Shown one piece after another: positions 35,565 to 39,484 of a DNA stretch of 64,000 nucleotides (position 1 is its first letter; the number at the start of each line of letters is the position of its first letter). Position numbers and translations under genes: made by a program. Under the pieces are notes generated by a model. It did no database searches, was not told where the DNA came from, and saw only the letters and a program-made list of their open reading frames with translations. Origin of the DNA: Chlamydiota bacterium (lineage in GTDB: Bacteria; Auribacterota; Tritonobacteria; UBA1439); NCBI GenBank assembly GCA_012729785.1, contig JAAYCL010000020.1, positions 1 through 64,000 on the forward strand, given 5' to 3'.

Positions 35565-35592
35565 TTGCGGTGCGCCGCAGGCGTGCTATACT
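35565..35592 (+). promoter_or_regulatory. Promoter of the zinc ribbon-OB/TctA/YdjM cluster
   Basis: TTGCGG, 16 bases, TGC-extended TATACT. It gives an unusually long leader of about 190 bases, which contains a large hairpin. Confidence 0.6.
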
Positions 35593-35683
35593 TTTCGCGT
35601 GCGATTTCACGCGCCGGCGCGGCGCCGCGGGATCCCTTCCAGGGGTGATCATGCGCGACGACGTAGGAAGCGGCGGAGACCCG

Positions 35684-35726
35684 GATGCGCGGGACAGGCG
35701 GCGTTGCGCCGCCTGTCCCGCGCATC
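35684..35726 (+). repeat. Perfect 20-bp inverted repeat in the leader
   Basis: The 20 bases at 35684-35703 are exactly complementary to 35707-35726, with a TTG loop. In RNA this would be an extremely stable hairpin, about 60 bases before the start of the zinc ribbon-OB gene. No T-run follows, so it is not a standard terminator. It may be a leader element, an mRNA stabiliser, a protein-binding site or a REP-like mobile palindrome. Confidence 0.8.
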
Positions 35727-35787
35727 GTGCTTTGCGGACGGAGCGGCGAGCAACGCGGCCGTACACCAGAAAGGGAGGATGACGCCG

Positions 35788-36699
35788 ATGCAAGAGCAGA
35801 AGCAGCCGAACGTGTGTCCCGATCCCCAGAAGGCGCTCCTCGACGAGGTGCTCTGCCCGGGGTGCGGCAAGTTCGTCGGCGCCTACGAGAAGTGCCCGTA
35901 CTGCGGGACCGAGATGAAGAAGCGGATGAGCATCATCTTCTTCAAGCGCGCGGCGCTCGTCCTTGCCTTCGGGGGCCTCGCCCTCCTCTGGTTCACCGCC
36001 ACGAAGATGCAGCCGCCGCTCATCAGGATCGGCGACGTCGACGAGAAGGATCCCAACAGCGCCCGCTACAACAACGCCGTCGTCGAGGTGCGGGGCACCG
36101 TCGAGAGCGTCCGGACGACGGGCAGGGACGGCATCTCGTTCGAGATCGACGACGGGACCGGCAACATCAAGGCGCAGGCGTTCCGCGGGCGGGAGGTGAT
36201 GCGGCAGACGGGCAACACCCCCCACGTCGGGGACCAGGTCGCGGTGGTCGGCTCGATCCAGCTCACCGACAAGTACGGCACCTCGCTGATGATCAACATA
36301 CCCGAGAAGGTGAAGGTCACCCCCGCCAAGGCCGAGAAGGTCCTGCTCGAGCGGATCACGCTCGACCGGAAGGGGGCGCTCGTCGAGGCGACCGGCGAGA
36401 TCGTGATCGCCCGCAGGAGCGGGGACGACATCTTCCTGACCATCGGCGACGCGACCGGCCTCGTCGAGGTCCCGCTCTTCGGCCGCACCATCAGGTACGC
36501 CAAGAACAAGGAGCGCTTCAGCACCGTCGGCAGGGAGATCACGGTCATCGGTACGATCGGTGAGTACCGGGGCCGCCCCCAGATCACCATCCGCGACGTG
36601 GAGGAGATCGTCACGCTCGCCGAGGACACCATCCCGACCGACAAGATCCCCGGCCGCGAGGAGGCGGTCAAGAAGGCCGCGGAGCTCGAGTCGAAATAG
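35788..36699 (+). CDS. Zinc ribbon, membrane anchor and tandem OB-fold protein
   Basis: The 303-residue protein has an N-terminal zinc ribbon (Cys23, 26, 36, 39 in CPGCG and CPYCG), a basic stretch, and one membrane segment (about 54-70). Two OB-like beta-barrels follow at about 95-175 (VVEVRGTVESV, FEIDDGTGNIKAQAF, GDQVAVVGSIQL) and 195-275 (ALVEATGEIV, LTIGDATGLVEVPLF, REITVIGTIG). By the positive-inside rule the ribbon is cytoplasmic and the OB folds are outside. OB folds of this kind often bind nucleic acid, but no ligand can be proved. The ATG at 35788 has GGGAGG nine bases upstream. It leads a three-gene membrane cluster. Confidence 0.8.
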   Translation: MQEQKQPNVCPDPQKALLDEVLCPGCGKFVGAYEKCPYCGTEMKKRMSIIFFKRAALVLAFGGLALLWFTATKMQPPLIRIGDVDEKDPNSARYNNAVVEVRGTVESVRTTGRDGISFEIDDGTGNIKAQAFRGREVMRQTGNTPHVGDQVAVVGSIQLTDKYGTSLMINIPEKVKVTPAKAEKVLLERITLDRKGALVEATGEIVIARRSGDDIFLTIGDATGLVEVPLFGRTIRYAKNKERFSTVGREITVIGTIGEYRGRPQITIRDVEEIVTLAEDTIPTDKIPGREEAVKKAAELESK

Positions 36700-36775
36700 C
36701 CCGCCCCCGCGGCCAGCGCCGGGGCCGTCCCGGGCGCGCCGCGGAGGACCCGTGGACACGGCGGAGGACTGACTG

Positions 36776-38104
36776 ATGGATACGATCGCGGCGCTCCAGA
36801 TACTCTTCTACACCGTCCTCGGGACGGTCATCGGGGGCGTCCTCTCGATGCTCCCCTCGCTGCACATCTTCAACGTCAGCGGGATCGCGCTCCTCATCTG
36901 GATGAAGTGGCCGTTCCTGATGCCCGAGCTGGCGCTCCCGGCGTTCTTTATGGCGATGCTGGTGGCGTGGGCCAACATCAACACCATCCCCTCGATGTTC
37001 ATCGGGGCCCCCGACGAATCGGCGGTCTTCGTGGTGCTGCCGGGGCAGAAGTACATGCTGCAGGGGCGCGGCTTCGAGGCGGCGATCCTCACCGGGGTCG
37101 GCTCGCTCGGGGCCATCTTCATGATGGTGCTCCTCACGCCGTTCCTCTATCGCGCGATGCCGGTCATCAAGAACATCCGGAGCGATAACCTGGCCTGGAT
37201 CATGCTCCTCTTCATCATCTACATGCTGATGAGCGAATGGCCCAAGGGGACCGGGCTGGGCAAGACCACCTGGGAGCGGTTCAAGTGGGCGTGGGCCAAC
37301 CTCATCTCCGGGATCACCACCTTCGCCCTTTCGGCCTTTCTCGGTTTCATCATCCTGAACCGGACCATGGTCCCGCTCGACATGAGTTTCCAGGGGATCA
37401 TGCCGGTCTTCGTCGGGCTCTTCGCGGTGGCGGGGATCATCCAGAACCTCGTCTCCAAGCAGAAGGTGCCGCCCCAGCACGAGGCCACGTCGATCGACGT
37501 GGACTACCGCCTCCTCGGGAAGGGGATCTTCGCCGGGACGATCGGCGGCGGGCTCGCGGCGACCATCCCCGCCGTCACGGGCGGCATCGGCGGCATCATC
37601 GCGGGGCACGCCACCGGGCAGCGCGACGACCGCATCTTCGTCATCTCGCAGGGGGTCTCGAAGACGATCTACTACGTCGGGGCGTTTCTCCTCTTCTTCG
37701 TCCCGACGCTCCAGCTCTCCCGCGGCGGGATGACGATCATCCTGAAGCCGCTCTTTACCCCCTACACCAACCAGGAATATTTCAGCATCCTCTCGGTGAT
37801 CATGATCAGCGGCGCGTTGAGCTTTTTGATGATGTTCCCGCTGACGCGCTGGACCATCCGCCTCATCACGCGGGTCGACTACCATGTCCTCCTCTGGGGC
37901 GCCCTCGGCCTCTGCTGCCTCATCGTCGGGGGGCTCTGCGGCTGGATGGGGCTCTTTCTGATGATCGTCTCGACCGGCATCGGCCTCATCCCCGCGTTCT
38001 ACCACTCGCGCAAGAGCAACTGCATGGCGGTGCTCCTCGTCTGGATGGTGCTCAGCATGAGCGGGCACGGGCCGGCGATACTGAGGTTCTTCCGTCTCGA
38101 CTGA
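36776..38104 (+). CDS. TctA/DUF112-like membrane permease
   Basis: The 442-residue protein has about ten hydrophobic segments and an N-terminal GTVIGGVLSMLPSLHIFN that matches the glycine/proline re-entrant motif of TctA-type permeases. A second such motif lies in the middle (GTIGGGLAATIPAVTGGIGG). The inverted-repeat layout fits this family, whose bacterial members move tricarboxylates with the partners TctB and TctC. Neither partner is encoded here, and the protein looks closer to the stand-alone branch found in archaea and candidate phyla. It lies 76 bases after the OB-fold gene and 30 bases before the YdjM-like gene, probably in one operon. The substrate is unknown. Confidence 0.72.
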   Translation: MDTIAALQILFYTVLGTVIGGVLSMLPSLHIFNVSGIALLIWMKWPFLMPELALPAFFMAMLVAWANINTIPSMFIGAPDESAVFVVLPGQKYMLQGRGFEAAILTGVGSLGAIFMMVLLTPFLYRAMPVIKNIRSDNLAWIMLLFIIYMLMSEWPKGTGLGKTTWERFKWAWANLISGITTFALSAFLGFIILNRTMVPLDMSFQGIMPVFVGLFAVAGIIQNLVSKQKVPPQHEATSIDVDYRLLGKGIFAGTIGGGLAATIPAVTGGIGGIIAGHATGQRDDRIFVISQGVSKTIYYVGAFLLFFVPTLQLSRGGMTIILKPLFTPYTNQEYFSILSVIMISGALSFLMMFPLTRWTIRLITRVDYHVLLWGALGLCCLIVGGLCGWMGLFLMIVSTGIGLIPAFYHSRKSNCMAVLLVWMVLSMSGHGPAILRFFRLD

Positions 38105-38134
38105 GAAAGCGCACACACAGGAGGCCAGGCTGCG

Positions 38135-39226
38135 ATGAAAGGTCTGACGCATTTCATAAGCGGCGTCGCGATGGGGTCGTTCATCCCGGCCGCCGTCCGG
38201 ATGGCCAACAACAAGATCGACAACTCCCTCATCCTCGGGCTCGGGGGGCTCTTCGGCATCATGCCCGACACCCTCGACTTCAAGGTGGGGCAGTTCTTCT
38301 CCCAGGCCGACTACGACGTCGACGTCGACCCGAACAACCTGAACCCGCAGGATATGGCGGAGCAGATCGCCAAGGGGATCAACGACGCGTGGGAGACGGG
38401 GCGGTACGTGAAGGTCCAGCTCTACCCGATCCGCCTCGGCGTGGATCTGTGGCGGCAGTACGTGGTCAAGTTCGACGGGGAGAAGAACGAGGTGGTCGTG
38501 GTGATCAACGAGATCGTCAACACCTCGCAGACCCCGTACCTCGGCACCGCGCCCAAGACCAACCGCGTCGGCCGCTGCCGCGTGAAGGGGAAGATGCTGG
38601 AGACGCACGGCAAGCCGTCGGTGGTGGATATCATGAGCGGGCCGCAGTTCGGCTTCATCAAGCGGGCGGGGCAGGTCGAGGTCGAGTTCCTGCCCTGGCA
38701 CCGGACCTGGAGCCACAGCTACGTCCTCGGCTTCATCCTCTCCTCCGTCGTCTGGGTCCTCGCCTCGCTCGTCGCCGGCTGGGATAAGGGGTGGCTCTAC
38801 GGCCTCGTCGCCTTCCTCGGCTACGCCATCCACATCACCGAGGACCTCACCGGCCACATGGGCGGAAGCCTCCTCTGGCCGTTCCAGAAGGACCGGACCA
38901 ACGGGCTCTGCCTCTTCAAGGCAAGCAACCCGCACGCCAACTTCACCGTCGACTACATCGCGGTGACGCTGCTCCTCTTCAACCTGAACCGTTTCGCCCC
39001 GAGGCCGTACTTCGCGATGGGGGCGTGGCAGTACCTCCTCTACGTCATCGCCATCCCGCTCGTCATCTACGGGCTGATCACCAAGATCTTCGGCGAGAGG
39101 AAGGGCGAGGCGAAGAAGGAGGGGGAGATCTCCGCGGAGAAGGCGCTCGCCGAGCATCTGAAGCAGTCCAACGAGGAGATGCTCTACGAGGCTGAGGACG
39201 CGCTCCTCGGGGACGTCCAACGGTAG
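38135..39226 (+). CDS. YdjM-like membrane-bound metal-dependent hydrolase
   Basis: The 363-residue protein begins with LTHFISGVAMGSF and GLFGIMPDTLDF, and later has WHRTWSHSYVLG and HITEDLTGHMGGSLLWPF. These His/Asp blocks and the surrounding membrane segments define the YdjM (DUF457) family of predicted inner-membrane hydrolases; the E. coli member is LexA-regulated. A polar insert (about 65-185) between the first two motifs is larger than in E. coli YdjM. A charged C-terminal tail (KGEAKKEGEISAEKALAEHL) is cytoplasmic. It is the last gene of the zinc ribbon-OB/TctA cluster and is followed by a strong terminator. Confidence 0.78.
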   Translation: MKGLTHFISGVAMGSFIPAAVRMANNKIDNSLILGLGGLFGIMPDTLDFKVGQFFSQADYDVDVDPNNLNPQDMAEQIAKGINDAWETGRYVKVQLYPIRLGVDLWRQYVVKFDGEKNEVVVVINEIVNTSQTPYLGTAPKTNRVGRCRVKGKMLETHGKPSVVDIMSGPQFGFIKRAGQVEVEFLPWHRTWSHSYVLGFILSSVVWVLASLVAGWDKGWLYGLVAFLGYAIHITEDLTGHMGGSLLWPFQKDRTNGLCLFKASNPHANFTVDYIAVTLLLFNLNRFAPRPYFAMGAWQYLLYVIAIPLVIYGLITKIFGERKGEAKKEGEISAEKALAEHLKQSNEEMLYEAEDALLGDVQR

Positions 39227-39248
39227 CTTCTTCGCCGCAGTGCCGGGG

Positions 39249-39307
39249 CCGGGCATGCATCCCCGCGCGGGCCGCCGCGCCGGGGGAGGATGCCCGGTTC
39301 GTTTTTT
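39249..39307 (+). terminator. Intrinsic terminator after the YdjM-like gene
   Basis: CCGGGCAT (39249-39256) pairs with ATGCCCGG (39290-39297) around an internal GC-rich stem, and TTCGTTTTTT follows at once. It closes the cluster transcribed from 35565. The remainder of the 327-base gap (39308-39484) shows only AT-rich sequence next to the terminator and no supported gene. Confidence 0.75.
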
Positions 39308-39484
39308 AATATATTTTTGAACGAACGCCCGCCGGCGTCGTCGAAACATCCGAAGAGGACCGATCGGGCGGGCGACCCCCTCGCGGGCGCGCCCGGTCGC
39401 CGGTGCGGCGGCCTCTCCGTCCGGTCCCCGGCCGTCCTCGAGCCCGGCCGCGGGGAGGGAGTGGCTCGCGCGGCCGGCGCGTCT

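Follow-up and report, generated by a model that had tools for sequence, protein, structure and literature searches.

The locus occupies 35.78-39.23 kb of the window (the whole stretch of 64,000 nucleotides analyzed here) and consists of three operon-packed genes for membrane proteins, all on the + strand, in a host genome of 2.59 Mb that is 96.6% complete. One relative of the same family (L053) is a Candidatus Auribacterota MAG, which makes Auribacterota the probable phylum of the host. Gene 1 (35788..36699, with an alternative start at 35779) encodes a protein made up of a zinc ribbon, one transmembrane (TM) helix and two OB folds, as indicated by two PF01336 matches and an AlphaFold2 (AF2) model; gene 2 (36776..38104) encodes a TctA-like permease (PF01970), and gene 3 (38135..39226) a member of the YdjM family of membrane metal-dependent hydrolases (PF04307, AF2). 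A GGAGG-type ribosome-binding site is present in the sequence ahead of each of the three starts. The interval separating the operon from the MBL-fold gene upstream contains a perfect 17-bp inverted repeat with a 3-base loop (35687..35723, + strand), which occurs in a single copy genome-wide and is possibly an attenuator or the terminator of the upstream gene. Downstream of gene 3, a sequence scan identified an intrinsic-terminator-like hairpin followed by a T run (39279..39308, + strand). The initial annotation had described three adjacent membrane genes bracketed by one promoter and one terminator: the presence of the three-gene operon is confirmed, with a Pfam match for each gene, and the hairpin agrees with the terminator, while the promoter was not borne out, as a sigma-70 scan returned no promoter-like site ahead of gene 1.

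The gene 1 product was modeled by AF2 with a mean pLDDT of 87.4 and displays one TM helix (residues 50-76, 35926..36006, in agreement with hydropathy) and two OB-like barrels (36061..36324 and 36334..36624), which were delineated by Pfam (PF01336, 1.8e-15), AF2 and Foldseek. The four cysteines of the zinc ribbon (C26, C29, C39 and C42; 35854..35904) are all invariant in an alignment of 29 sequences. Since a basic stretch precedes the TM helix, the zinc ribbon is predicted to be cytoplasmic and the OB folds to be extracytoplasmic, so that the earlier picture of two OB folds exposed outside the membrane holds, the two barrels being seen in the model and their sidedness predicted. Comparison of the OB model with the PDB using Foldseek yielded 335 matches at E<=1e-3, headed by archaeal RPA in an RPA-DNA filament (7.8e-10), and the best 50 also include Teb1, human RPA70, HIN-200, POT1 and SSB; a sequence profile searched against PDB sequences also ranked archaeal RPA first (8.8e-9). 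The tandem OB pair is thus nearest, in fold and in sequence, to RPA/SSB-type DNA-binding OB proteins, and for this reason nucleic acid is the likeliest ligand class. The original suggestion of nucleic acid or a nucleotide as ligand gains from this result in its first half, while a nucleotide-sized ligand stays unproven. The net charge of the OB ectodomain ranges among homologues from -29 to +29 and is not consistently positive, which would argue against DNA binding by simple electrostatics. Homologues also differ in how many OB domains they have (proteins of ~280 to 711 residues), and in many Chloroflexota there is a second OB gene, which begins with what resembles a lipoprotein signal (e.g. 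L072, L076, L078 and L112) and would therefore independently put OB folds outside the membrane.

Gene 2 matches PF01970 over its full length (3.4e-38). Neither TctB nor TctC was found anywhere in the host genome by searches that were positive in control genomes, in line with its first description as a TctA-type channel without either partner, and a search by sequence for a solved TctA homologue returned none. The TctA tree mostly tracks phyla (12 label changes against a minimum of 10), and a search of viral contigs found no relative; a mobile or viral origin was accordingly dropped. Among 72,556 plasmids searched by tblastn, the window TctA matched only two cyanobacterial ones, of Pseudanabaena and Cylindrospermopsis, both carrying an OB-TctA pair with no annotated TctB or TctC beside it. 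On the Cylindrospermopsis plasmid (L132:4198-8376), the pair is followed by a NERD nuclease-related gene, possibly a different nuclease partner.

Such a pair has been described in archaea. Transposon and clean deletion mutants of Methanococcus maripaludis established that natural transformation requires both MMJJ_13020 (an OB fold with a single TM) and the gene that follows it, MMJJ_13030 (TctA-like, 11 TM), neither of which is dispensable, and a TctA homologue is also essential for transformation in Methanoculleus thermophilus (PMC10133366). The DNA channel of archaeal transformation was recorded as unknown, with the TctA-like protein as a candidate (PMC10133366). The operon likewise presents a single-TM OB gene and a TctA-like gene in succession, without TctB or TctC, and the OB/TctA genes are best explained as the bacterial counterpart of MMJJ_13020/MMJJ_13030, judging from domain content, order and family. 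The initial statement that the cluster could not be matched to any described system is therefore superseded for its first two genes, which match the archaeal pair in kind and order. In the literature searched, which left most subscription papers and preprints outside, no description of the bacterial three-gene cluster was found.

These observations bear on two alternative readings of the permease. Characterized TTT members move carboxylates, and the membership of gene 2 in PF01970 would therefore be compatible with a small-molecule transporter, in which an organic acid or a phosphorylated small molecule would be the cargo of TctA, with the OB protein as its receptor in place of TctC and YdjM as the enzyme that hydrolyzes it. 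Archaeal TctA (arCOG04469), encoded mostly by stand-alone genes, was earlier predicted to be a probable carboxylate transporter (PMC5898192), which points the same way. Against this stand the absence of TctB and TctC from the genome, the DNA-type tandem OB folds of the putative receptor, the failure of this TctA subfamily to match any other plasmid-borne TctA and the requirement for archaeal TctA-like proteins in transformation (PMC10133366), and we regard a small-molecule transporter as rather unlikely. That the system exports or secretes DNA instead of importing it would be conceivable, given that the inward direction is itself an inference, but the archaeal OB/TctA mutants cannot be transformed (PMC10133366), which makes export highly improbable.

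The assignment of gene 3 to the YdjM family is well supported (PF04307, 1.8e-13; 50.8 bits versus a cut-off of 29), and PF04307 was matched in all 44 aligned members. Seven candidate metal ligands (H6, D45, D48, H189, H194, H233 and D237; 38150..38845) are invariant in these 44 sequences, and the AF2 model (pLDDT 88.6) places the strands of an inserted beta-rich domain at residues 56-187 (38300..38695). By profile comparison, YdjM has been related to alpha-toxin phospholipase C, Het-C and S1/P1 nuclease, often with a beta-sandwich (PMC8557891). In a Foldseek comparison with the PDB, the YdjM model gave no match at E<=0.001, to a PLC/P1 nuclease fold or any other; the His/Asp pattern is conserved. 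A sequence search for a solved YdjM homologue also returned none. Because a significant match to a solved fold is absent, the protein is best regarded as a putative nuclease. Of the earlier designation as a membrane hydrolase, the family assignment thus stands, while the hydrolase activity itself is a family-based expectation. The distribution of charges over the loops (positive-inside rule) predicts that the active site faces the cytoplasm, and the enzyme would therefore meet its substrate at the inner face of the membrane or beyond it.

The reported kinship of YdjM with alpha-toxin-type phospholipase C (PMC8557891) would also suit a role in envelope lipid or cell-surface maintenance, with YdjM acting as a phospholipase-like enzyme and OB/TctA taking part in lipid or polymer traffic. 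The best Foldseek matches of the beta-rich insert, weak and below significance, are C2-like beta-sandwiches, and C2 domains bind membranes. Such a role leaves both the RPA/SSB-like tandem OB folds and the archaeal transformation phenotype unexplained, and we consider it very unlikely.

Besides the window copy on contig C20, the host genome contains one further TctA gene, located on contig C5, where OB and YdjM genes again flank TctA in the order seen in the window. Identities between the two copies amount to 53% for TctA, 49% for YdjM and 39% for OB. In the TctA tree, the two host copies fall into separate, well supported clades, each common to other members of the same family, and the duplication or acquisition hence predates the genus. 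Together with the conservation of order across phyla described below, the second full copy indicates that the arrangement exceeds chance.

The co-occurrence of the gene families was analyzed in 98 related and random bacterial genomes. The TctA subfamily was present in 18 of these, and the YdjM subfamily (E<1e-40) accompanied it in 17 of the 18 carriers and in none of the 80 non-carriers, the sole carrier without it having a contig that stops 347 bp past TctA; Fisher probabilities calculated for these counts are descriptive only, as they ignore shared ancestry. A scan of 84,980 species identified 99 relatives, 80 of which were examined. Once duplicates were removed and contig ends allowed for, an OB gene lies <=500 bp upstream of TctA in 67/74 loci, and YdjM lies downstream of TctA within <=500 bp in 46/74 and within <=5 kb in 53/74, with median intergenic gaps of 16 bp (OB-TctA) and 23 bp (TctA-YdjM). 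Full triads were encountered in Auribacterota, Chloroflexota, Verrucomicrobiota, Kiritimatiellota, Lentisphaerota, Elusimicrobiota, Muiribacteriota, Hydrogenedentota, Lindowbacteria and UBP18, so that the OB-TctA-YdjM order recurs in about ten phylum-level groups, with phylum labels being those of the submitters and bins being open to contamination. The three genes are thus linked and their subfamilies mutually specific, and their shared order in many phyla and near-perfect co-occurrence support one functional unit; the three families are neighbors in related genomes, so that the check suggested with the initial annotation turned out in its favor.

Departures from this arrangement were also observed. 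In some Chloroflexota, TctA and YdjM are separated by unrelated cargo, for instance an AIPR protein; Planctomycetota loci have no adjoining OB gene, and TctA stands without either partner in a clade made up of L068, L071, L077 and L083, where contigs permit a view. In one family only (f9; L041, L044, L039 and L050), a second, diverged TctA directly follows YdjM to give a four-gene cluster, and at L098:4031-10321 a divergently transcribed pair of OB-TctA-YdjM clusters lies back to back. No other widely kept gene family was found in the flanks of the operon, and a wider conserved operon was dropped for want of a fourth gene shared by the phyla.

The relation of the operon to the known competence machinery was evaluated as well. 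The host genome has a normal ComEC, DprA and two PilT proteins, and ComEC is kept in 18/18 operon carriers among the relatives and in 44/50 carriers elsewhere. The operon is therefore not a simple substitute for ComEC, an idea that was dropped on these counts, and its task may be DNA or nutrient uptake of some other form. Competence genes were found near the operon at 2/87 loci, a frequency not far above chance, and their candidacy as general neighbors is weak. At one of these (L066), the ~4.2 kb upstream of the operon hold a ComEA-like gene and the gene for a secreted protein (L066:2693-4429) in which a ComEC-type MBL domain is fused to ComEA-type HHH repeats and to an OB fold; at the other (L033, from a genome of the same family as the host), a secreted ComEC-type MBL protein stands beside a cluster of the second type.

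Two further observations concern competence-related proteins. Long ComEC-like proteins (~960-1300 aa) that have DUF4131 and Competence domains and lack an MBL domain were encountered in 8/18 carriers versus 2/80 non-carriers, as raw counts uncorrected for relatedness (L142-L149 and L151, in G006, G061, G072, G013, G021, G034, G031 and G028); similar proteins are present in ~10/50 carriers of other phyla, and they are unlinked to the operon on contigs. The host genome also yields about ten HHH_3 (ComEA/T2SSK-type) matches, several of them in small proteins (contigs C42, C45, C5, C9, C3 and C39).

Because ComEC is retained, any further route would be expected to do something else, such as scavenging. 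The system might accordingly take up nucleotides, oligonucleotides or nutrient DNA apart from transformation, with YdjM, whose active site is predicted on the cytoplasmic face, hydrolyzing the chain completely. This is countered by the heritable transformation that the archaeal pair yields (PMC10133366) and by flanks in which nothing that is conserved points to nucleotide metabolism, and we judge such scavenging to be unlikely.

Taken together, these results suggest a model, to which we assign an even chance, in which the operon encodes a three-part inner-membrane importer of nucleic acid, a bacterial version of the archaeal uptake pair with a dedicated hydrolase. Outside the membrane, the tandem OB folds would capture nucleic acid, with single-stranded DNA or oligonucleotides as its likeliest form, and the TctA-type channel, independent of TctB and TctC, would conduct it; YdjM, presumably the bacterial addition to the OB/TctA pair, would hydrolyze the nucleic acid at the inner face or trim the entering chain. 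For this proposal we infer the position of the OB folds outside, the inward direction, the DNA substrate and the phosphodiesterase activity. The model draws on the gene linkage and order, the RPA/SSB-like OB folds, the lipoprotein-like second OB genes of Chloroflexota, the archaeal genetics, the plasmid-borne OB-TctA pairs, the L066 locus and the DprA and PilT proteins of the host. Weighing against it are the retention of ComEC, the variable charge of the OB ectodomain, the lack of a significant PDB match for YdjM, the rarity of competence genes as neighbors and the loci in which OB or both partners are missing. A more far-reaching version holds that OB receptor, TctA channel and YdjM nuclease constitute a ComEC-independent DNA import machine, present in about ten bacterial phyla and sharing its core with the euryarchaeal transformation apparatus; this we put forward tentatively, at somewhat less than even likelihood. 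If true, the operon would represent a second way, and an ancient one, for DNA to enter cells, and many uncultivated bacteria would possess two entry routes, which bears on models of gene transfer. By comparison across bacteria, the operon may also lend independent weight to the view that nucleic acid can be moved by TctA-like proteins, and it offers in YdjM a candidate processing enzyme for such a channel.

Compared with known systems, the proposed importer resembles several in part. It shares with TctABC (TTT) a full-length PF01970 TctA homologue, although the operon TctA belongs to a distant sequence subfamily, TctB and TctC are missing, and an OB protein stands where the TctC receptor would be. 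Gene 3 resembles YdjM and PLC-S1/P1-nuclease-like hydrolases in its PF04307 match and its conserved H..D..H..H..H-x3-D pattern, and differs from them in the long beta-rich insert between D48 and H189 and in its strict partnership with OB/TctA. A works-like parallel exists with ComEC/Rec2, as ComEC combines an OB fold that binds DNA with a channel and with a metal nuclease for cutting the strand that stays outside (PMC12455585), and the operon an OB fold, a membrane channel and a putative metal-dependent nuclease. In contrast to ComEC/Rec2, the operon parts reside on separate genes with channel and hydrolase from different families, the three proteins lack the Competence domain (PF03772) and the MBL domain, and the OB folds are of the PF01336 type, whereas the ComEC OB is Arg/Lys-driven (PMC12455585), unlike the operon ectodomains. 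Closest overall in its first two genes is the archaeal MMJJ_13020/MMJJ_13030 pair, from which the bacterial operon is set apart by the predicted cytoplasmic zinc ribbon before the TM helix of the OB protein, by the YdjM hydrolase as a third member and by hosts that are bacteria also having ComEC.
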